Below are positions 1,390-23,638 of a stretch of 23,638 bases of DNA, one piece after another. Below the pieces are notes generated by a model, which did not search any database, was not told the origin of the DNA, and saw nothing but the letters and a program-made list of their open reading frames with translations. The stretch covers positions 1 through 23,638 of IMG/VR virus record IMGVR_UViG_3300044731_001268. The stretch is one strand, 5' to 3'. Position numbers and translations under genes: made by a program. Origin of the DNA: a virus. Position 1 is the first letter of the stretch, and the number at the start of each line of letters is the position of its first letter.

Positions 1390-1620
1390 ATGAAACTCCC
1401 CGATGAATTGACTCCGCAGGAGCATGGCGTTATTAAAACGGCTCTGCTGGAATTGGAAACACGCAACGCTGTCTGGCTGAAGGACTCGCATTGGTCGCCT
1501 GAGATGCGGGCGGGTTTGCAGCGGGATATGGAGCAGGCTAGTGCGCTGCGCGAGAAGTTGCGCGAGGTGTATCTGGTGCCGATGGCACGCCATTGGAGCA
1601 AAGGGAGGGCGGCACGATGA
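1390..1620 (+). CDS. Small unknown protein preceding the integrase
   Basis: About 76 residues (MKLPDELTPQEHG...), charged and helical, with no recognised domain. An upstream in-frame ATG at 1330 would add 20 residues, but that stretch runs through the tandem CGTCTAGCA repeats, so 1390 is preferred. No strong ribosome-binding site is visible for either start. It ends inside the integrase gene: its TGA at 1618-1620 overlaps the integrase ATG at 1617, so the two are translationally coupled. Its position suggests a recombination-directionality or integrase-accessory role, but nothing in the protein proves it. Confidence 0.5.
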   Translation: MKLPDELTPQEHGVIKTALLELETRNAVWLKDSHWSPEMRAGLQRDMEQASALREKLREVYLVPMARHWSKGRAAR

Positions 1621-2972
1621 AAACGGCTCTGGGATCATACTCGATTTATCGGCAGCCAAAGGCGCGGGCGGAGGGGCTGCCTCAGTTTGAGTGGAAGTGG
1701 GTCGTGCGGTTCTTTGTCGGGACGGGCAAGCCGCTGACGAGATCGAAGCACCCCTACCCTATTTGTGATAAGTGCCTGGCGGAGGTGGGGAATCCGGTGG
1801 AGACGCGGCCGAATTGCGGGTGCCAGGTGGTGGTGCGGAAGTGGGCGGAGTTGTTTCTGAAGACGCACACGGCGATGCTGCAACGCGGCGAGATGGACCG
1901 GCTGACGGAGCTTTTAACGCCGAAGCAGTTCACGTCACCTGCGGAGGTGCTGGCGGTGTATCGGGAGCGCGGGCCGGAGGACCGGGTGCAACGGTTGAAC
2001 TTTCTGGCGGCGGTGTTTGAGCAGACGACGGGGAAGGACATTTCATGTGTGAGGTGGGAGGATTTGACGGCGGACCTGAAGCTGGACTGGGCCGAGCTGC
2101 GCCAGGAGGCTGGCCGCCGCGGCTGGCTGGGGCTGGGTGCTGGCCGGAACATGCCGGCCAATGGTTGGGCGATGCTGCGTGAGCTGAAGCGTGCGGGCAA
2201 GCTGCCTGCGCTGGACGATCGCACCGAGGCGGCATGGAACACGACGGTGAACACTTACATGACGAGCATCAATTCCATTTTTGGCGAGAAGGCGCGGACG
2301 AAGATCCTGCGGGGGCTGAACGTGCCGCCGCTGGCGGAGTTTCTGGGCTGCCGTCTGGCTTTGCCTGCGCCGAAGGGGCACAAAGAAATCGAGGCGGGTG
2401 TGATGGCGCGGATTGATGCGGCGCTGCCGGTGCTGCGGGCGGAGGATGCGCGGGTATGGTTGTTTGAGCAGCTATGTGAGGAGACGGGCATCCGCCCAGT
2501 GTCGGTGCGGCGGCTGGTGCCGGGTGATCTGCGGGCGCTGACGACGGCGGAGGCGGCGGAGTGGAGGTCACGCATGGCGGCGGAGTGGCGCGTCGAGGAA
2601 GCGGATCTGTGCGAGTTTGGCGGGCTGCTGCGGGTGGCGGCGGCGAAGCATGGGGCGGAGATCCTGACGCCCATCTCGGCGGAGGTGGTGGCGGTGGCGC
2701 TGGCGGTGCAGACGGCGGGCAGCCTGATCGGTGCCAGGCATGAGACGGAGGGCCGCCAGCTTCATGCGCGGCTGAATGCGTTTCTGCGCGTCTGTGGCGT
2801 GTCGGGCACGCAGGCGGCGTATTTGCTGAGGCATCGCAAGGGGCAGCTTCTCCGTCGTTTTGGTGGCAAGGCAGCGGCGGCGGCGGGCCTGGGCCATACG
2901 AGCGAGGCGATGGCGGGACGGTATAGCCGCGAGGATCGCGTGGTGCCTGCGGTGGGCCTGCGGGTGGCGTGA
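1617..2972 (+). CDS. int: Phage tyrosine integrase with N-terminal Cys motif
   Basis: 451 residues. Start ATG 1617 follows a strong AAGGGAGGG at 1601-1609. The C-terminal half is the catalytic domain of tyrosine recombinases. Box I arginine is R293 in ETGIRPVSVRRL, the second arginine is R405 in YLLRH, then LGH (H427), and the nucleophile is Y436 in GRYSRE. The first histidine of the usual HxxR motif is a tyrosine here (Y402). The N-terminal part carries C50-x2-C53 and C67-x-C69, a possible small zinc site that is uncommon in this family. It should recombine the attP at 1081-1362 with a host tRNA-Gln gene. The gene ends 83 bases before a bidirectional terminator. Confidence 0.9.
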   Translation: MKTALGSYSIYRQPKARAEGLPQFEWKWVVRFFVGTGKPLTRSKHPYPICDKCLAEVGNPVETRPNCGCQVVVRKWAELFLKTHTAMLQRGEMDRLTELLTPKQFTSPAEVLAVYRERGPEDRVQRLNFLAAVFEQTTGKDISCVRWEDLTADLKLDWAELRQEAGRRGWLGLGAGRNMPANGWAMLRELKRAGKLPALDDRTEAAWNTTVNTYMTSINSIFGEKARTKILRGLNVPPLAEFLGCRLALPAPKGHKEIEAGVMARIDAALPVLRAEDARVWLFEQLCEETGIRPVSVRRLVPGDLRALTTAEAAEWRSRMAAEWRVEEADLCEFGGLLRVAAAKHGAEILTPISAEVVAVALAVQTAGSLIGARHETEGRQLHARLNAFLRVCGVSGTQAAYLLRHRKGQLLRRFGGKAAAAAGLGHTSEAMAGRYSREDRVVPAVGLRVA

Positions 2973-2987
2973 GTGGAGATGGGAAGT

Positions 2988-3050
2988 AATCGGACAGGGA
3001 GATATGGAGACAGGGAGATATGGAGACAAGGAGACAGAGAGATAGTAAGA
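2988..3050 (+). repeat. Purine-rich spacer repeats (GGAGATATGGAGACA type)
   Basis: Imperfect direct repeats GGAGATATGGAGACA occur twice, followed by further GGAGACA/GAGA variants, between the integrase stop and the terminator. A 15-mer at 2988-3002 (AATCGGACAGGGAGA) is identical to 21319-21333 in the spacer after the portal gene, so this belongs to a dispersed spacer family. Confidence 0.6.
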
Positions 3051-3055
3051 CAGAG

Positions 3056-3085: not shown

Positions 3086-3117
3086 GATTTTCTGGAATGT
3101 TTCCGGTTTTGCGGGTG

Positions 3118-3468
3118 CTAACCGGAAATGTTGTCTGGATAGTTCTTGTTCAGCTTCTTCTTCGCGTCGTTGGCGGCGTCGTAGAGTTGAGACATAACCC
3201 TGTTTTCAAGTCCGCTGCTGCCGTGGTTCGCGAGCCTGTTCGCTTCGTCGTAGCATGTCCGCATCAGCGTGGTGGCAAGCGCCTCCATTTCGCGGGCACG
3301 AGTTGCGAGGTTGTGGATCAGCGAACTGTCGCCACTGTCGCTGGACAAAATGGCGTCAACCGAAGCTGAACCCGGCATCGCAGCCAATGAGCCACGAGCT
3401 TCTTGGTGGTGGAACGGGCAGTCCGCAGATGGGACCGTGGGGCACGTGCAGATTTTGGGAAGGCTCAT
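3118..3468 (-). CDS. Unknown small protein, last gene of leftward block
   Basis: 116 residues. The N-terminus has a Cys/His-rich stretch (CTCPTVPSADCPFHH, residues 7-21) that could hold a metal. The rest is helical with a basic end (KKKLNKNYPDNISG). I do not recognise it. ATG at 3468 overlaps the TGA of the gene upstream (3465-3662) as ATGA, so the two are coupled. It ends 33 bases before the shared terminator at 3056-3085. Being in the leftward block with its own promoter, it is likely expressed early or in the lysogen; function unknown. Confidence 0.6.
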   Translation of the reverse strand: MSLPKICTCPTVPSADCPFHHQEARGSLAAMPGSASVDAILSSDSGDSSLIHNLATRAREMEALATTLMRTCYDEANRLANHGSSGLENRVMSQLYDAANDAKKKLNKNYPDNISG

Positions 3469-3662
3469 GGCTGGATTTGATCGTTCTGGACACCGGCGAG
3501 AGTCGCTAGGTATTCGTAAAGTTCAAGGCTTCCGGCCTTCGCTCGCAGTCCGGCAACGGTGCCGTCAATGAGTCTATCGGCGAGCCGTTCGTTGCGGTTT
3601 GTGCGCTTGCTGCCCGGCACGGGTCCGGGCTTGCGTTTCTTGGTTGCTTTCTTCTTTGGCAT
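3465..3662 (-). CDS. Small basic protein
   Basis: 65 residues. The first 25 are very basic (MPKKKATKKRKPGPVPGSKR) with a KPGPVPG stretch faintly like an AT-hook, followed by a helical region. It may bind nucleic acid; this is inferred from charge only. It overlaps the next gene by an ATGA junction, and the gene upstream ends at 3764. No strong ribosome-binding site is visible. Confidence 0.55.
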   Translation of the reverse strand: MPKKKATKKRKPGPVPGSKRTNRNERLADRLIDGTVAGLRAKAGSLELYEYLATLAGVQNDQIQP

Positions 3663-4253: not shown

Positions 4254-4348
4254 TAATTATTTATTGGTGCCAAGAAGTATATTTGGAAGCGTGAGGCAGG
4301 TGTCCAGAACCAAACGCTGATCCGAACCGCCAAAGCGCGGTCGGATAG

Positions 4349-4603
4349 CTATGCGTTCGGCTTCTTCCACACGCCGGGCTTCACCCATTGCTTGCCTTGG
4401 GCCGCATACTCGGCAGCGCCAGCAGCATCGCAGAGAGCCATCTGTATTGCGTCGATTGGCTGGATCAGCCCTGGGCTTAGATGCGTCGAGTAGAAGTTTG
4501 CCATTTTGCGGAGGCTCACAGCGAAAATCGCCAAAGCCGAACCATCCGCTGCACCCTCAACGGCTGCCGCCGTTGCCCGTTTCATTGTTTTCTTCTTTGC
4601 CAT
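4349..4603 (-). CDS. Unknown small Ala-rich protein
   Basis: 84 residues, MAKKKTMKRATAAAV at the start, then an alanine-rich helical segment and a C-terminal KQWVKPGVWKKPNA. The pattern of a lysine-rich start followed by small residues is like other small phage proteins, but I do not recognise it. It sits alone between the repressor gene and the promoter of the next leftward gene, with no clear ribosome-binding site. It could be co-transcribed with the repressor, whose stop is 103 bases away. Confidence 0.45.
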   Translation of the reverse strand: MAKKKTMKRATAAAVEGAADGSALAIFAVSLRKMANFYSTHLSPGLIQPIDAIQMALCDAAGAAEYAAQGKQWVKPGVWKKPNA

Positions 4604-4705
4604 AGTCGTCAGTGTTTGCGGTGCCTATTCCCCGGCAGCCGTCGCCTGACGCTGATCGTTCGGCCCCTTGCACGATCTGGCGGATCGGGTGCAGCGGGTG
4701 GGTGG

Positions 4706-12389: not shown

Positions 12390-12812
12390 ATGACCGAAGC
12401 AAGCACACTAACAATGACCCAAGACCAGCCCCAGAGGTTGGCAGCAGAGCCGGGTTGTCCTCCCGAATGGCTGGAAGAGATAGTCGAAACTATCGGCATT
12501 ACCGATGGCGTCGATCTCGTTGAATGGCACCTAGACCAGACGGGCGACTACATCGTCAAAATCGAATACGGCGAGGAAGAAATGAGCTTCCGCGCGGGCA
12601 CAGATGGCGAGAGCCACGGCCAAGACTACGATGGCACAATCATCGACATGACCACGACGGATCAAGTGCAGTGGTGGTGCGCTGGTGAACTCTACACGCG
12701 GCTCCAAAGGGCCAAGCGCAAGATCGAGGACTTGGAGGCGAACGTCCCTGCTCTGGCAGCAAGCCTGGCGGAAAACTCAAACCAAGCGACTGATACCCAA
12801 GATGAAAACTGA
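12390..12812 (+). CDS. Unknown acidic protein with coiled-coil end
   Basis: 140 residues, or 132 from ATG 12414. Acidic (YGEEEMSFRAGTDGESHGQDY), with a C-terminal heptad region (ELYTRLQRAKRKIEDLEANV). Starts one base after the HAD gene stop and overlaps the next gene by 11 bases, so is part of the same operon. Not recognised; acidic proteins of this size in phages may mimic DNA, but nothing shows that here. Confidence 0.55.
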   Translation: MTEASTLTMTQDQPQRLAAEPGCPPEWLEEIVETIGITDGVDLVEWHLDQTGDYIVKIEYGEEEMSFRAGTDGESHGQDYDGTIIDMTTTDQVQWWCAGELYTRLQRAKRKIEDLEANVPALAASLAENSNQATDTQDEN

Positions 12813-13113
12813 CCCGATACTCCAAGAAGCTGGCGAAGCTTGCCAGCAGCAGGCTTGTTCGGCTTCTGCTCGCCGTCATGCCGACAATGTGTGGTGCATT
12901 GTGTATGCGGAACATAGTGCGCGATACCAGCATGAGGTAAAATGCACAGGCGCGGCGTGCGACTACTTCGAGGCCAAGCGCAAAGTCGTGGATGCACAAG
13001 CTTTAGCCGACCCAAGAGTGATCGACGCAAACCGGCTGGCCTATGGTGAGCCGAACGGCATGGATGAGAGGGCGCGAAGCTCGACATCCTCAACCACTCA
13101 CAGCACACTATGA
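12802..13113 (+). CDS. Unknown small Cys-containing protein
   Basis: 103 residues from ATG 12802, which lies inside the end of the previous gene. Five cysteines (C14, C19 and three more by residue 53) and a patch ARYQHEVKCTGAACDYFEAK. No recognised domain. The stop overlaps the next start as ATGA. Confidence 0.5.
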   Translation: MKTDPILQEAGEACQQQACSASARRHADNVWCIVYAEHSARYQHEVKCTGAACDYFEAKRKVVDAQALADPRVIDANRLAYGEPNGMDERARSSTSSTTHSTL

Positions 13114-13442
13114 GCGATCTTCCTCCATCCAATTGTTCTGCCTGCCCTCAGTGCCGAGGGTTTAAGATCATTCTGAACTTCCACGGGCAGAGCTTGGGGC
13201 AATGCGATATGTGTGAAGGTGCTGGCATCATGCCTGAGTGCGTTAACAGGTGGCACGCCTATGGCCAAAGGCTCAAGGCTGAGCGCATCTATCGACGAAT
13301 GACACTTCGAGCGGCAGCTAGGCATCTTGGCATAGACGCCTCCAATCTGTCGAAGATGGAACGCGGAATCATCGCGCCTCGTGGTCTTTGGCAGAACGCT
13401 TCAAGTCTGGCGACGGCGGGCGCTGGACTACCGAAACCATAA
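13110..13442 (+). CDS. Zn-ribbon plus XRE-type HTH regulator
   Basis: 110 residues. C12-x2-C15 and C32-x2-C35 (CDMCEGAG) form a zinc ribbon with a DnaJ-like CxxCxGxG half. Residues 54-90 (LKAERIYRRMTLRAAARHLG, IDASNLSKMERGIIAP) are an XRE-family helix-turn-helix. Both folds bind nucleic acid, so a regulator of middle or late genes is likely. ATGA overlap with the previous gene. The last 20 residues look unstructured. Confidence 0.7.
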   Translation: MSDLPPSNCSACPQCRGFKIILNFHGQSLGQCDMCEGAGIMPECVNRWHAYGQRLKAERIYRRMTLRAAARHLGIDASNLSKMERGIIAPRGLWQNASSLATAGAGLPKP

Positions 13443-13813: not shown

Positions 13814-14527
13814 ATGACCGACATCACCGCCCCGATTCTTGGCAGCAGCGTCTTGTTAGGCCCCGTTGGTCTAGCGCATGGCATAAGGCCGTATTACCAA
13901 GACGCAGCCGTTACCATATATCATGGAGACAATCGCGTCATCATGCCGCAACTCGCTCCGTTCGATCTCCTACTGACTGACCCGCCGTATGGGATCGGGG
14001 CGGACAATCGAAAGCGCATTCTGTCGCGGAGGAAGTTGGCTGCCGCCAAAGACTACGGAGAACAAAACTGGGATGCCGATGTGGTCGATGAATGGGTGAT
14101 GTTCCTCGCTCGAAGACTTGGAAGAAAGCAGATCATCTTCGGGGGAAACTATTACGACCTGCCTCCGACGAAATGCTGGCTGGTATGGGACAAGCTAAAC
14201 GGGGAGAATGACTTTGCTGACTGCGAGCTTGCATGGACGAACCTGGAGCGAGCTGTAAGGCGAAAGACTCATTTATGGAATGGGATGCTACGCAAAGGCG
14301 GAGAGGATCGTGACCACCCAACGCAAAAGCCGCTGGAGGTAATCTCATGGGCGCTCCAGCTCGCTGGAGACGTGACGACAGTGCTCGACCCGTGGGCAGG
14401 CTCAGGAACAACCGGACGTGCCTGCAAAGACCTCGGCAAGCTGTGCGTGCTTATCGAGCGAGAGGAACGCTACTGCGAGGTAGCAGCCCAACGCATGGAA
14501 CAAGAAGTGCTCCCGCTAGGGGCCTAA
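13814..14527 (+). CDS. DNA methyltransferase, beta-class (N4-cytosine or N6-adenine)
   Basis: 237 residues from ATG 13814. Motif IV is TDPPYG (D56 to Y59) near the N-terminus and the AdoMet motif DPWAGSGTT is at 192-200 near the C-terminus, the order of beta-class enzymes. YYQDAAVTIYHGDN at 27-40 is the usual start of these proteins, so the first 26 residues are an extension and an in-frame TTG at 13853 is an alternative start. No restriction gene is next to it, so it is a solitary methylase, likely protecting phage DNA or altering its regulation. The target cannot be predicted. The stop lies inside GCCTAAC. Confidence 0.85.
   Translation: MTDITAPILGSSVLLGPVGLAHGIRPYYQDAAVTIYHGDNRVIMPQLAPFDLLLTDPPYGIGADNRKRILSRRKLAAAKDYGEQNWDADVVDEWVMFLARRLGRKQIIFGGNYYDLPPTKCWLVWDKLNGENDFADCELAWTNLERAVRRKTHLWNGMLRKGGEDRDHPTQKPLEVISWALQLAGDVTTVLDPWAGSGTTGRACKDLGKLCVLIEREERYCEVAAQRMEQEVLPLGA
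13847..13867 (+). repeat. 21-bp repeat with GTTAGGC, copy 1
   Basis: AGCGTCTTGTTAGGC and six more bases; 18 of 21 positions equal those at 14639-14659. It lies in the same frame near the start of the first methyltransferase, as copy 2 does in the second. Confidence 0.6.
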
Positions 14528-14653
14528 CGCCAGCGGTGAGCCGCGCCCCCTCGAATGACTATGAACACCACGACTGAAACCCTGACCCTCGAAAGCCCTG
14601 CGCAGGCCGCCAGCGTGACCAGCGGGGGTGTTGGCTCTAGCGCCTTGTTGGGC
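14522..14653 (+). other. Candidate integron attC-like site between the methyltransferases
   Basis: GCCTAAC (14522-14528, fits RYYYAAC) and GTTGGGC (14647-14653, fits GTTRRRY) can pair completely with one G-T. Inside them GAGCC (14538-14542) pairs with GGCTC (14633-14637) and CCCCC (14546-14550) with GGGGG (14624-14628). The 132-base length is within the range of known attC sites. It overlaps the start of the second methyltransferase frame, which is against a standard cassette boundary, so confidence is low. Confidence 0.3.
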
Positions 14654-15085
14654 TCCGTTCATTTTTCGAGCGCGTCCGATGAATGGCCAACGCCTCGCGC
14701 CTACTTTGAAACGGTGGAACGTGAGTTCGGCCCCTTCGACCTCGACCCGTGCGCAACGCCTGCCAGCGCCAAGGCTCCCAAATACTTCACGAAAGCAGAC
14801 GACGGCCTCGCCCAAGAATGGCGCGGGCGCGTGTGGATGAATCCGCCCTACGGTCGCACCATCGGCGCGTGGATGCGGAAAGCCTACGAAGCCGCGCAAG
14901 CCGGGGCTGTGGTGGTGTGCCTAGTGCCAGCCCGCACGGACACCGCATGGTGGCACGACTACGCAGCCAAAGGCACCGTCCGCTTCCTGCGCGGGCGGTT
15001 GAAGTTCGGAGACGCCAAGAACTCCGCGCCCTTCCCCTCGGCTCTCGTCGTCTTTGGTATGCCTAACAAGAATTATCCAGACTGA
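14555..15085 (+). CDS. Phage N6-adenine DNA methyltransferase (Dam-like)
   Basis: 176 residues from ATG 14555; ATG 14561 or an in-frame TTG 14648 are alternatives, and the last would start MGSVHFSSASDEWPTP, the usual family beginning. SDEWPTPRAYFETVEREFGP, FDLDPCAT and the catalytic NPPYG (96-100) identify the phage N6-adenine-methyltransferase family. The first 33 residues are an extension encoded over the attC-like region. It methylates adenine in phage DNA; the target is unknown. The end of the gene carries GCCTAACAAG (15061-15070), the exact inverse complement of 13852-13861. Confidence 0.88.
   Translation: MTMNTTTETLTLESPAQAASVTSGGVGSSALLGSVHFSSASDEWPTPRAYFETVEREFGPFDLDPCATPASAKAPKYFTKADDGLAQEWRGRVWMNPPYGRTIGAWMRKAYEAAQAGAVVVCLVPARTDTAWWHDYAAKGTVRFLRGRLKFGDAKNSAPFPSALVVFGMPNKNYPD
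14639..14659 (+). repeat. 21-bp repeat with GTTGGGC, copy 2
   Basis: Second copy of the sequence at 13847-13867, differing at three positions. Confidence 0.6.
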
Positions 15086-15129
15086 CTTTTCCGCTCAACA
15101 CCTGCAAAACCGGAAATATTCTAAAACTT

Positions 15130-16130
15130 ATGAACCTGCGTGATACACTGGAACAAGTTCGGCTGACGTGCCGCATGCGGCGGTTGTCGAGGCACACGGA
15201 AGAGTCTTATGCTGGGTGGATCGTGCGGTTTGCCAGGCATGTAGCCAGCAGGGCGGAAGAGTCACGGGAGGAGCGGGTGCGGAGTTTTCTGGAGCAGATG
15301 GCCCCGTGTTGCTCGGCATCGACGCAAAACCAGGCTTTGAATGCCATCGTGTTCTTTTACCGCGATGTGCTGCGGCAGCCGCTGGGTGATCTGGGGAAGT
15401 GGGCGCGGGCGAAACGGCCGGCACGGCTGCCGTCGTGGCTGAGTCCTGACGAGATGCGGCGTTTGTTCGATGCGATGACACCGGGGCCGCGACTGATGGC
15501 GCAGGTGGCGTATGGCAGCGGCGTGAGACTGGCGGAACTGCTGGCGCTGCGGGTGAAGGACATCGACCTCGATGCGTGCCTCATCACGGTGCGCGGCGGC
15601 AAGGGTGACAAAGACCGTGTGACATGCCTGCCTCGCTCGCTGGTGTTCACGTTGCGGGCGCATTTGGAGCGCATTCGGTTGCTTTACGATGCCGACCGCC
15701 AGGCGGGGGCGATGCCGGTGTATCTGCCGGACCAACTGGAGCGCAAATATCCAAACGCAGGCCGTGAGTGGCCGTGGTTTTGGCTGTGGCCTGCGGCGAA
15801 AGCACCGATCCACGCAGCGGCATCGTGCGCAGGCATCACATCCATGAGGACACGCTGGGCAAGGCGCTGAAGAATGCCCGCCGTCGCTGCGGACTGAGCA
15901 AACGAGTCACGGCGCACACGCTGCGTCATAGCTTTGCCACGAACTTGCTGGCGAACGGCGCGAGTATTACTCAGGTGCAGGAATTGCTCGGGCACAGCAG
16001 CGTGGAAACGACGCAAATTTACACGCACTGCATTCCGCAGTTTGCCCGCAGCATCACGAGTCCGATGGACACGCTGCCGCAACCTGAGAATGTCGTGCCG
16101 TTTGAAGCGCAAGCAAGGAGGGCGGCATGA
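15130..16130 (+). pseudogene. intI: Integron integrase IntI, split by a frameshift
   Basis: Reading frame one runs from ATG 15130 and supplies the N-terminal SAM-like domain, YGSGVRLAELL (first arginine), GGKGDKDR (lysine) and [16 protein letters not shown]. The frame then must shift by one base near 15790-15802 to continue [47 protein letters not shown]. The stretch from LERKYP to [10 protein letters not shown] is the extra domain found only in integron integrases. The joined product would be about 333 residues, close to the family length (IntI1 has 337), with all catalytic residues. The likely cause is a lost A in the run at 15799-15801, either a real mutation or a sequence error. The end overlaps the small terminase start as ATGA. 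Confidence 0.88.
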
Positions 16131-16750
16131 GTGAGCTGGTGACAACGGAACTGGGGCTGGCGGTGCCGCCGAAACCTGCGGAGGCGTGGCGGGAGCACAC
16201 GACGGAGCGGTGGCGTGAACGTGACCCGGAAGGGTATGAGTTCGCGTTGTATCTGGTGCGCGAGCTGGGGCTCACGAACAAATCGAAGATCGAGGGCATG
16301 GTGAGCCAGCATCGCCAGGCGCGAGGACTGGACGGCATTTCACGCAACAGCATCATCGCGTTGTTCAACGACACGCGGGAGTTCAAACCCGGAGAGATTG
16401 ACGAGATCATCCGGCGACGCTCGGCGCTGCTGACGGCGGATGCGCTCGACAAGGTGGAGGAGCTGCTTTACTCCGCGAAGGCCGCGAAGGACTTGGGCGC
16501 GGCGAGCATGGCGCTGACGGCGGTTTACAACGTCAAGCAACTTAGCAGCGGCGGCGCGACTCGGATTAGCGGGAACACGCAAGACAGCGCAAAAGCGAAG
16601 ACGTTTGATGACTTCGTGAAGATGGCGCAGGAGCGCATGAAGCTGAAGGAAGCTGAAAGGGTGACGGAGGTGGAGGTGGTGCCGGTGAAGGAATGTGAAA
16701 CTGAAGCGGGCAGGAGTGCCCGCGCTCCTCTCCAAAACAAAACTCTATGA
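16127..16750 (+). CDS. Probable small terminase subunit
   Basis: 207 residues; ATG 16127 with AAGGAGGG at 16115-16122. The order and the ATGA coupling to the large terminase identify it as the likely packaging-initiation protein, which binds phage DNA and feeds it to the motor. Residues 45-80 ([20 protein letters not shown], then HRQ) look like an HTH and residues 90-140 are helical, as expected for oligomerisation. The C-terminal tail is charged. No strong family match by eye. Confidence 0.65.
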
Positions 16751-18732
16751 GCACGGACGAAACCAGAATGGCGTTTGAACTGCTGGCGGAGACGCAGCGG
16801 CCGCATGGGATGCTGGCGGCGTTGTCGGCGGATGAACTCATGGCGCTGGGGCCGGAGGATGCGATGCGCGCGGTGCAGGCGCGGGAGGAACGCATTCGGG
16901 AGGCGGCGGATGATCCGTTCAATCACGGCTGGTTCTTCCGCTCATGGGATGACATTCTGTGGGAAACGTGCCGCCTGCGTGTGGCGAATCCGGGCGTGCC
17001 CTGCACGATGGGGATCGGCGGCTCGAATGGCTCCGGCAAGACGCAGGCGCTGGCGCGGTTTTACACGCTGGCGATGGAGCAATGCACGCCGGACATGCCG
17101 GAGCATCAACGCACGTTTTGGACGTTCAGCTACGACGACGACAAGAGCGCCGAGGTGGTGGAGGCGGCGATTCGGTTCTGGCAGCCGAACGAATACAAGA
17201 CCGAGACGGGCCGCCTGAAGAAGATGGCGAACCAGAAAATGGCCTATGATCGCGCAGGCGGTTTCACGAACAATGAGTGCGCGGTGATGAGCGGCGCGGT
17301 GTGCCGGTTCAAGACTTGGGCGCAGGACATCGGCAAGCTGGAAGGTCCGCGCCCCACGACGGCCTGGGCGGATGAAAGCGTGCCGGTGATGGTGCTGGAG
17401 GCGGTGGAAAACCGCCTGCTGACGGCGGCGGAGTTCACGCATGAAATGATGCCGAAGTGGAAGGAACTGCTGGCGCAGAAGGAGCGTGACCCGGAGCTTT
17501 GGTTTCCGCGTGAGCTGATCGGCCGCCTGATGGTGGCGATGCAGTTCGTCACCTACACCTTCCGCGACGGTTACACGGAGACGGTGCGCTGGTTCATGGA
17601 CAAGGCGGTGACGATGAAGGAGATCGAGGCCGATCCCGAGCTGCTGCCGCGTTGCGACGATCAGGGCCGTGTGATCGGTGGCGAGAAACTGCCCTGCGTG
17701 GTGCATTGCGCCATGCCGACGCGGCGCTTTGTGTGGATCTATGCGTGGCAAAATCCTCTCGGTGGCAACTGGGAGGGCATGAAAAAGGCCGAACTCAAAA
17801 GCCCGCGAGCGAAGAAACTTTGGAAATGCTACGGCATCGCCGAGGGCACGGCGGATTCACCGTTTCCGAACTTCAACGTGCAGGTGCATGTGCGTCCGGT
17901 TCCGGCCTGGCTGCCGCCGTATGAAATTGGAACGTGGTGGATGTCGCAAGACCCGAACGCAAGCGGCGGCCGTGCGTGGTTTCAACTGTGGGCGTTTGTG
18001 CTGGGCGAGGCGTTTGGCAAGATGCACCCCGGTGACATCCTCATCGCGCACGAATACCCGCAGACGAACGACATCGTGAGCGTGCCGGGCGCGGCGATCT
18101 ACACGGGCGAGGACTGCGAATGGGCGCAGACGGGCGGCAAGAACGGGCTGGGTGTCAAAGGCAACGCGCAGAAGCAATGGCCCTGCGGCTATGCGTTCCG
18201 CGCCGCCGAGATCCGGCGCATCGAGGCGAAACTGGCCGACTGGCAGGGCGTCAAGGACATGCGCGGCAAGTTTGAGCGCAGCATGCTCGACCTCTACGGC
18301 CGCCGCATTTCCGACAGCCGCAGCACGAACACGCAGGTGGAAGGCCAGGAAGAGAGCAAGACCATCATCGAGTGGATGGAGGAAAACGATTTGTATTTCA
18401 GCCAGGCGGGCGGCAATGCGGCGGCGGACAACGTGCTGAGCGGTGAGCAGAACATTAACAGCATGCTGATGTGGGATCGTGAGCGCGGCATCATCCAGCC
18501 GAACGGCTGGATTGAGTTCGATCCGCAGCACGGGCGCGGCCCCGGCCTGTGGATCGCGCAGCATTGCACGAACCTGATCGGCGCGTTGCAGAACTACCCT
18601 GGCTACGCGGTGAGTGGCAGCAGCGGCAGCGCGTGGAAAGACCCGATCGACACCCTGCGCATTTTGTTGGCGGCGCGGCCCGAGCATCTTTCGGAAAAGG
18701 ATCTGCGGATTGAGAGGGGCGGGAGTTATTGA
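16747..18732 (+). CDS. terL: Terminase large subunit
   Basis: 661 residues. The ATPase half has Walker A GGSNGSGKT (91-99) and Walker B TTAWADE (204-210). A probable nuclease half follows, with D402 in SQDPNASGGRAW as first acidic residue and KDPIDTLRILL near 631-641 as the last acidic motif. It cuts concatemeric phage DNA and pumps it into the prohead through the portal. It is larger than most (about 500 residues), with an extended N-terminal region before the Walker motif. Preceded by the small subunit and followed by a small gene and the portal. Confidence 0.85.
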   Translation: MSTDETRMAFELLAETQRPHGMLAALSADELMALGPEDAMRAVQAREERIREAADDPFNHGWFFRSWDDILWETCRLRVANPGVPCTMGIGGSNGSGKTQALARFYTLAMEQCTPDMPEHQRTFWTFSYDDDKSAEVVEAAIRFWQPNEYKTETGRLKKMANQKMAYDRAGGFTNNECAVMSGAVCRFKTWAQDIGKLEGPRPTTAWADESVPVMVLEAVENRLLTAAEFTHEMMPKWKELLAQKERDPELWFPRELIGRLMVAMQFVTYTFRDGYTETVRWFMDKAVTMKEIEADPELLPRCDDQGRVIGGEKLPCVVHCAMPTRRFVWIYAWQNPLGGNWEGMKKAELKSPRAKKLWKCYGIAEGTADSPFPNFNVQVHVRPVPAWLPPYEIGTWWMSQDPNASGGRAWFQLWAFVLGEAFGKMHPGDILIAHEYPQTNDIVSVPGAAIYTGEDCEWAQTGGKNGLGVKGNAQKQWPCGYAFRAAEIRRIEAKLADWQGVKDMRGKFERSMLDLYGRRISDSRSTNTQVEGQEESKTIIEWMEENDLYFSQAGGNAAADNVLSGEQNINSMLMWDRERGIIQPNGWIEFDPQHGRGPGLWIAQHCTNLIGALQNYPGYAVSGSSGSAWKDPIDTLRILLAARPEHLSEKDLRIERGGSY

Positions 18733-21310: not shown

Positions 21311-21315
21311 CGGGA

Positions 21316-21341
21316 GACAATCGGACAGGGAGACAATCAGA
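21316..21341 (+). repeat. GACAATCRGA spacer repeats after portal
   Basis: GACAATCGGA (21316-21325) and GACAATCAGA (21332-21341) lie just before ATG 21344. AATCGGACAGGGAGA (21319-21333) is identical to 2988-3002. Confidence 0.65.
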
Positions 21342-21343
21342 CC

Positions 21344-21646
21344 ATGAGACAAAGCAAAAGCAGAAACAGCCGAGTGCTGGTTGAGACGTGCATGGAGTCC
21401 GGGCCGTTGACGGAGGATCAGATTGCGGATGCTTTGGAAGCCACGCATGAGACGCGGGAGCTGCGGGCGGTGATGTCGCTCATCGAATGCTTCATTGCGG
21501 AGGCGCACGCGGAGATGACACAGCGGGGGCAGGAGGCACGGATTCGGGACGAGGCGGCGGGCGCGGCGCGGTTTTTGAAGGATCTGCGGGCCGATGTGAT
21601 CCGGCTCACGGCGCGGAAGAAGCCGGACAAAGCACCTGAAAAGTGA
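21344..21646 (+). CDS. Unknown small protein after the portal
   Basis: 100 residues, charged and helical throughout, basic C-terminus (LTARKKPDKAPEK). No recognised domain; possible head-maturation or scaffold partner from position. The 111 bases after its stop (21647-21757) hold no gene, only a hairpin at the end. Confidence 0.55.
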   Translation: MRQSKSRNSRVLVETCMESGPLTEDQIADALEATHETRELRAVMSLIECFIAEAHAEMTQRGQEARIRDEAAGAARFLKDLRADVIRLTARKKPDKAPEK

Positions 21647-23069: not shown

Positions 23070-23638
23070 ATGCCCGCCACTTTTGAGCGCACCCAAACCG
23101 GCCGCCGCGAAGACCTCGCCGACGCCATCTACAACATCGACGCGAAGGACTATCCTTTGCTCTCCGCCATCCCGAAAGGGAAAGCCGCCGTCAAGACCCG
23201 CTTTGACTGGCAGGCCGACAGCTATGCCACCCCGAGCACCGACGGCGTTGTCGATGGTGCCGACGTGAGCACCTACGAAGACGCCGCCGAAAATCGCGGC
23301 CTGCTCTCCAACTACGTCCAGAAGGTGCGCCGCACCCCGATGGTCACGGAGATGGCGCAGGACGTGTCCGACGTGGCCGGCCTCGCATCCGAAATGGCTG
23401 GCGCCATCGCCAAGAAGACCATCGAGTGCAAACGCGATGTCGAAGCCACCCTCGGCAGCGACAACGAAGCACAGGCCGACAACGGCACGGTGCCTTACAA
23501 GACGCGCGGCCTCGGCAAATGGGCGCTCAGCACCGCGCAAGCCGTGCTTCCGGTGCCCTCCGCCTTCCGCACGCCCTCCGCCAGCATCGACGCCACCGCG
23601 CTTGCCAGCGTGACCCGCGCCGTGGTGAACAACGTCAT
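23070..23638 (+). CDS. Major capsid protein, SU10-like (3' partial)
   Basis: ATG 23070, open to the right edge (189 residues visible). The N-terminal part GRREDLADAIYNIDAKDYPL and IPKGKAAVKTRFDWQADSY is typical of the SU10/DUF5309 major capsid family, an HK97-fold protein of podovirus-like phages. KVRRTPMVTEMAQDVSDVAG and KKTIECKRDVEATLGSDN follow as in that family. It builds the icosahedral shell. The spacer before it has AACTTCAAC/ACTTCAACTTTT repeats and no clear ribosome-binding site. Confidence 0.85.
   Translation, partial: MPATFERTQTGRREDLADAIYNIDAKDYPLLSAIPKGKAAVKTRFDWQADSYATPSTDGVVDGADVSTYEDAAENRGLLSNYVQKVRRTPMVTEMAQDVSDVAGLASEMAGAIAKKTIECKRDVEATLGSDNEAQADNGTVPYKTRGLGKWALSTAQAVLPVPSAFRTPSASIDATALASVTRAVVNNV

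Follow-up and report, generated by a model that had tools for sequence, protein, structure and literature searches.

Integrons capture genes and thereby underlie much of the spread of antibiotic resistance, and recent work indicates that they also carry cassettes for bacterial defense against phages; their integrases are normally chromosomal or borne on plasmids and transposons. A gene for an integron integrase (IntI) in the packaging operon of a virus raises the question of whether the phage holds a stray piece of bacterial DNA, the remains of an old capture, or an integron that it uses itself. We addressed this question with the IMG/VR virus record IMGVR_UViG_3300044731_001268, all 23,638 bases of which were analyzed and are referred to here as the window. 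The locus is very probably a complete, resident phage integron that exchanges cassettes, and it looks like a variant of the integron apparently at home in phages, unlike the captured host integrons described earlier.

An Integron Integrase Gene in a Phage Genome

The TIGR02249 profile identifies a genuine IntI gene at 15130-16130, split over two reading frames. The frame 15130-15870 matches model positions 2-223 (212.7 bits, E 8e-63), the frame 15768-16130 matches positions 223-315 (126.3 bits, E 1.5e-36), and the two half-matches meet at a single point, model position 223. By this profile, part 1 of the gene (15130-15801, plus strand) encodes the N-terminal and core-binding domains, the start of the catalytic domain, and the IntI-specific insert; part 2 (15798-16130, plus strand), delimited by the profile and by comparison with 14 loci and contig L098, encodes the remaining catalytic domain in the other frame. 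The window copy is read in two frames because it lacks 4 bases that its relatives have, at ~15798-15801, and its first-frame ORF ends at 15870, ahead of the codons for the latter half of the active site. Programmed frameshifting was rejected, since every other copy examined is a single frame; with part 1 as the query, 14 further viral intI loci were found, and all 14 read through the join in one frame. Across 23.6 kb, the 4-base gap is the sole difference between the window and IMGVR_UViG_3300034096_000737 (contig L098, genome G005), which has an intact intI and closes through a 127-base end overlap into a circle of ~39.3 kb; thus, the same phage exists as a circle with an intact gene. The gap is located within a short direct repeat; slippage and an assembly bubble are thus both possible, and a real deletion and an assembly slip are to be considered alike. 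Because its intI copy is frameshifted, the window genome itself may be incapable of recombination, unless the gap is an assembly error.

The intact proteins keep R133, K158, H264, R267, H290, and Y299 (L098 numbering; invariant or aligned throughout), which we regard as the catalytic residues of a tyrosine recombinase. A preliminary description of this DNA held that the gene encodes all catalytic residues; they are present, but in the window copy they are divided between two frames. Its claim of the extra domain that distinguishes integron integrases holds without qualification, as this domain is present and is invariant or nearly so among the relatives. Intact intI genes occur in ~25 other viral contigs, and dN/dS values of 0.06-0.13 in the listed pairs, with a median of 0.19 over 54 usable pairs, argue that intI is maintained as a working gene. 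Two related contigs contain a truncated intI (L164, 8001-8447; L166, 4070-4309), and L166 retains three attC sites, which suggests that the integrase was lost in these contigs while the arrays stayed.

The best match of the protein among solved structures is Vibrio IntI4/IntIA (PDB 2a3v; 253 bits), with which it aligns over its full length, followed by XerA (138 bits) and XerD (82 bits). Among the NCBIfam models, part 1 scores 213 bits for integron integrase versus 74 and 60 bits for models of the XerC/XerD and phage tyrosine integrase kind. The insert domain is common to the phage protein, VchIntIA, and IntI1; identity to IntI1 is about 43% over the first 220 residues, and the phage clade is separate. 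XerC/XerD and the phage tyrosine integrases belong to the same superfamily and share the catalytic residues; however, XerC/XerD give much lower profile scores, lack the IntI insert, and occupy a different position in the tree. In this 91-row IQ-TREE phylogeny, the window protein and 21 other viral IntIs form one group inside IntI, separated from E. coli XerC/XerD at 100/100 support. The tree thereby bears out the preliminary assignment of the gene; placement among ordinary Xer or phage integrases, set beforehand as the refutation, did not occur.

We also scanned the GTDB collection (about 85,000 species, each represented by a single genome) for bacterial and archaeal IntIs. Among the matches listed, the closest is 53% identical, and none from a host chromosome or a known mobile integron is near-identical to the phage protein. 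A wider viral scan found intI at 62-100% identity in ~30 viral contigs from many samples, and the phage IntI clade, among the matches listed, consists of viral contigs only. More distant viral IntIs, 33-42% identical to the window clade, occur in L139, L141, L143, L144, L148, L149, L153, L155, L157, L159, and L160, and most of these form one separate clade; the contigs inspected have attC-like arrays upstream of intI and many ORFs co-directional with intI.

Position in the Packaging Operon

The overlap between the intI stop and the terminase start, noted in the preliminary description, is the ATGA at 16127-16130. The overlapping gene (16127-16750, plus strand; 4 bases shared with intI) is a probable terminase small subunit, which precedes the large-subunit gene and is conserved in relatives, and it returned no family match in a profile search. 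The terminase large subunit (TerL) follows at 16747-18732 (plus strand) and was identified by fold comparison (BFVD terminase match, E 3e-19); this sequence had no Pfam or PHROGs match, and a sequence-profile search against the PDB returned just a P-loop kinase (E 0.08). The major head protein is encoded at 23070-23636.

In most contigs of the clade, intI lies directly upstream of the small- and/or large-terminase gene, and this adjacency persists though the terminases diverge to 27% identity. Intact copies at the same site in related phages, which the preliminary description had named as a check, were found beside terminase genes. In L008-L010, on the other hand, intI lies away from the terminase, facing the recombinase gene of the phage itself, and intI is missing next to the TerL gene in several contigs whose TerL is close; the intI-terminase position is therefore common, not universal. 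The window also encodes a divergent tyrosine recombinase of its own that is not an IntI (1593-2972, plus strand). It has no sequence-family match, and its predicted fold, from a low-confidence model (pLDDT 60), matches XerA, lambda Int, and Cre (probability 1.0, best E 1e-4). Among 388 Verrucomicrobiota genomes, 11 contain a match to the TerL profile (to 1e-52), as does 1 of 294 Planctomycetota genomes (3e-4); based on the former, the host likely belongs to the Verrucomicrobiota.

attI Sites and attC Arrays

The attachment site adjoining intI, attI1, lies at 15061-15121 (plus strand), with the core GCCTAAC at 15061-15067 and a predicted cut between 15066 and 15067. Homology between the window and contigs L005 and L099 resumes exactly at 15061. 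Across the clade, the motif AACA[AGC][TG]GATTATCC is conserved past the core before intI, and the sequence preceding the core differs. We used the exact 15-base motif only in combination with attC and intI, because this form matches unrelated contigs by chance. A second, inverted site, attI2 (3095-3154, minus strand; core GTTCAGC at 3148-3154), is 84% identical to attI1 over 57 bp and, with an attC array of its own (array B), adjoins the tyrosine recombinase gene at 1593-2972. This site is conserved in genomes G006 and G007 with different cassettes beside each, and G006 has at least seven attC there. In contig L107, a second attI (12590) is preceded by two attC and is not followed by intI. A reverse-strand motif at 8257 of L295 is attI-like, with one attC upstream, a distant large-terminase gene directly downstream, and no intI between.

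A strict attC consensus (RYYYAAC/GTTRRRY, one mismatch) returned zero sites even in bacterial arrays and was thus too strict; a looser scan with a positional model replaced it, and bacterial attC were then recovered. Sites were scored with two custom positional models, one trained on sites from bacterial arrays adjoining IntI and the other on phage sites at fixed orientation, as training in both orientations lost polarity. The bacterial-trained model gives 25.3 for the site at 14522-14653 and values near 10 for further sites of the window, and in 473 kb of shuffled DNA it yields 7 matches above 9. At a threshold of at least 14, it finds 25 matches in clade contigs versus a single one in 472 kb of related contigs that lack intI, although intI-less contigs with related TerL are not a clean control, several having high-scoring attC-like sites upstream of the terminase. 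Such sites, all of the same polarity and in fragments with no recognizable intI, lie at 421-1374 of L259, 120-212 of L264, 2793-3777 of L271, 4940-5031 of L272, and 1796-1882 of L273, which are possibly integrase-less arrays. With the phage model (25 sites), leave-one-out scores range from 22 to 41, and the shuffled maximum is 20.1 in 1.42 Mb.

Upstream of intI, the window contains at least four attC (array A), all on the minus strand. With the bacterial-trained model and leave-one-out phage model, respectively, the sites of cassettes C1 (14522-14653), C2 (13391-13483), and C3 (13050-13141) score 25.3 and 34.9, 10.0 and 40.6, and 10.9 and 26.0; the site of C4 (12737-12863) has a leave-one-out score of 32.0 with the phage model, and its boundary is confirmed by an exact indel in L005. 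A probable further attC on the same strand (cassette C5, 12325-12460) scores 33.5 with relaxed core pairing. Array B, on the plus strand, comprises the attC of its first cassette at 3365-3489 (score 33.4), another at 4536-4664 (leave-one-out 31.4 in the plus sense), and a possible weak site at 4304-4361 (12.6 only). Since at least four attC lie upstream of intI, the methylase genes in this region are cassettes. The preliminary description placed intI between phage methylase genes and the small terminase gene; the location stands, but the methylases are cassettes and not fixed phage genes.

The polarity relative to intI is canonical for 47 of 50 strong attC, and the other three belong to the inverted array B. 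Hairpin pairing was assessed on 44 attC picked on arm sequence only, with pairing not required; the site's own arm gave the best pairing for 27 of them, against 43 foreign arms each (p = 6e-21), and pairing is kept despite the diverged arm sequences. When aligned by hand, the sites carry extra unpaired bases on the R'' side in the called orientation, as bacterial sites do.

Cassettes, Cargo, and Orientation

Cassettes C1 (14528-15066) and C2 (13397-14527), both on the plus strand and delimited by core sites, encode a Dam-type DNA adenine methyltransferase (PF05869, 93 bits; ORF 14555-15085) and a CHC2 zinc-ribbon protein with an N6/N4 DNA methyltransferase (PF01807, PF01555), respectively. Cassette C3 (13056-13396, plus strand) encodes a small helix-turn-helix protein (PF13560; ORF 13110-13442) and is also present in L097 (97%) and L005 (94%). 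Cassette C4 (12743-13055, 313 bp, no strand assigned) is identical in L097 and precisely absent from L005. In array B, cassette B1 (3149-3483, minus strand; ORF 3118-3468) is 90.3% identical, core to core, to an array A cassette of L009. The Dam ORF of C1 terminates inside attI1 and the minus-strand ORF of B1 inside attI2, both reading through a common NKNYPD stretch; the TAA stop codon of the C2 methyltransferase is part of the core site.

Other arrays contain additional N6/N4 and C5 methylases, an RNA ligase, a PAPS-reductase-like protein, and a protein with an Acb2/Tad1 hairpin domain (L009, 4807-5190; PF24729, 30.7 bits), of a family known from anti-CBASS and anti-Thoeris sponges. In the second viral IntI group, C5 methylases, a Mom-family protein (L153, 4008-4865), and a Lar-like restriction-alleviation protein (L144, 5098-5589) lie in or near attC-bearing regions. 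Judged by family name, the cargo would consist of DNA-modification and counter-defense families; this theme rests on a minority of cassettes because many have no recognizable function, and most small cassette ORFs returned no family match.

Cassette orientation was taken from the longest ORF, a crude gene call in GC-rich DNA that was applied alike to the bacterial controls. By this measure, the gene points toward attI in 34 of 46 distinct phage cassettes versus 0 of 36 in bacterial arrays (Fisher p = 3e-13). Most phage cassettes thus depart from the usual layout, in which genes read away from attI and can be expressed by a Pc promoter at intI/attI; this layout does not belong to the minimal definition of an integron. 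Based on this orientation, it appears that the cassettes would be transcribed from an upstream phage promoter, along with intI and the terminase genes, instead of from Pc.

Probable Cassette Exchange between Phages

Near-identical phages differ by whole cassettes, with core sites as the breakpoints. L005 is 99.97% identical to the window up to the core site at 12737-12743, is without 12743-13055, and matches again from the following core site onward. In the L097 contig (G007), the left end contains the C4 cassette and the right end does not, and 98 bases leading up to the core site are identical at both ends; we interpret this as the coexistence of two array states in a single population, the alternative being a chimeric assembly. 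L009 and L011 have in common a stretch of 1,011 bp that is 99.8% identical and bounded at both ends by core sites, whereas their flanks are 68-82% and their intI genes 79.9% identical. The preliminary guess that such a phage could collect gene cassettes is thus supported by the attI and attC sites and by the presence, absence, and sharing of cassettes at core sites, from which we infer recombination. IntI would be the catalyst of these swaps, and homologous recombination at conserved attC arms could account for some of them.

Proposed Mechanism and Alternatives

We propose that IntI is produced from the phage operon just upstream of the terminase genes and recombines folded bottom-strand attC hairpins with attI1 and at least one further attI of the same genome, which would insert and excise small promoterless cassettes. 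The array would lie inside a co-directional phage operon, so that cassette genes mostly point toward attI and intI, the reverse of bacterial cassettes; pointing this way, they would be read from the upstream phage promoter, with stop codons often supplied by a core site or by attI. Co-infecting or recombining phages might then swap cassettes and hold a shifting stock of counter-defense and DNA-modification genes.

One alternative, which we consider improbable, is that the locus is an anciently captured and now dead integron, and that its cassette differences arose by homologous recombination between attC arms and attI. The frameshift in the window intI and the truncated genes of L164 and L166 would fit such a relic, and attC arms of different phages are in some cases 90% alike, enough to be usable as homology; however, intI is intact in all other full-length relatives read and is under purifying selection, hairpin pairing survives the divergence of the arms, the breakpoints fall at core sites, and the multiple attI copies retain their motif. 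Less probable still is that IntI performs another phage task, with the cassettes incidental. Tyrosine recombinases commonly handle lysogenic integration and the resolution of genome multimers, which here would take place by the packaging site, and intI adjoins the terminase genes in many phages; on the other hand, several phages own a separate tyrosine recombinase (1593-2972 and its relatives), the DNA adjoining intI consists of attI and attC arrays, and in L008-L010 intI is away from the terminase. Host DNA or a misassembly joined to phage DNA, an idea prompted by the classically bacterial nature of integrons and the assembly-like 4-base gap and named in the preliminary description as a second refutation, can be dismissed almost entirely, since about 30 viral contigs from many samples carry intI, two with this arrangement can be joined into circles through end overlaps of 127 and 123 bp, and the nearest bacterial IntI among the matches listed is as distant as 53% identity.

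The resident phage integron resembles the sedentary chromosomal integrons of bacteria (L020, L042, L036; Vibrio IntIA) in that its IntI contains the extra domain, an attI adjoins the integrase gene, attC hairpins form arrays of the same polarity relative to intI, and the cassettes vary. It differs from them in lying within the packaging operon of circular ~39-kb genomes, in its mostly reversed genes, in the presence of at least two attI in several genomes, and in R boxes that are often GTTC, not GTTA. With somewhat less confidence than in the resident integron itself, we consider it likely that these loci represent a virus-resident integron class: an old, phage-only IntI lineage with backward-read cassettes, several attI per integrase, and a circulating pool of counter-defense genes.

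Phage-borne IntI as such is already reported. According to Qi et al. 2023 (PMC9892861), 10,705 phage genomes yielded three complete integrons, one cassette-less intI, and 17 attC clusters, and the integrons were attributed for the most part to the capture of host or class 1 integrons; the four IntI-bearing phages comprise captured Vibrio integron pieces, a P1 carrying class 1 integrons, and a Shewanella prophage that is inactive. The same study notes methyltransferase cassettes, as found here, among the phage integrons and CALINs, and an assay in which IntI1 recombined phage attC. Those of its IntIs that were compared fall outside the window's clade, and the portions of the study consulted mention neither a resident lineage nor reversed cassettes nor a site linked to the terminase. 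The literature searched, with preprints and most subscription journals outside its scope, did not describe any phage lineage with a resident integron.

If this proposal is true, phages own a dedicated site-specific system to swap counter-defense genes, which would account for the movement of small anti-restriction genes between otherwise diverged phages. The attI motif and attC arms would then provide a clean marker for finding new counter-defense genes, and the small family-less cassette ORFs are leads because their neighbors are methyltransferases and Mom-like, Lar-like, and Acb2/Tad1-like proteins. The reversed gene sense makes a separation of the phage and bacterial cassette pools by orientation testable. 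The same architecture in the second, distant viral IntI group would mean recurrent invention.

Apart from the integron, the window contains short intergenic tandem repeats of GGGAGACA-like units at 2993-3053 and 21312-21352.
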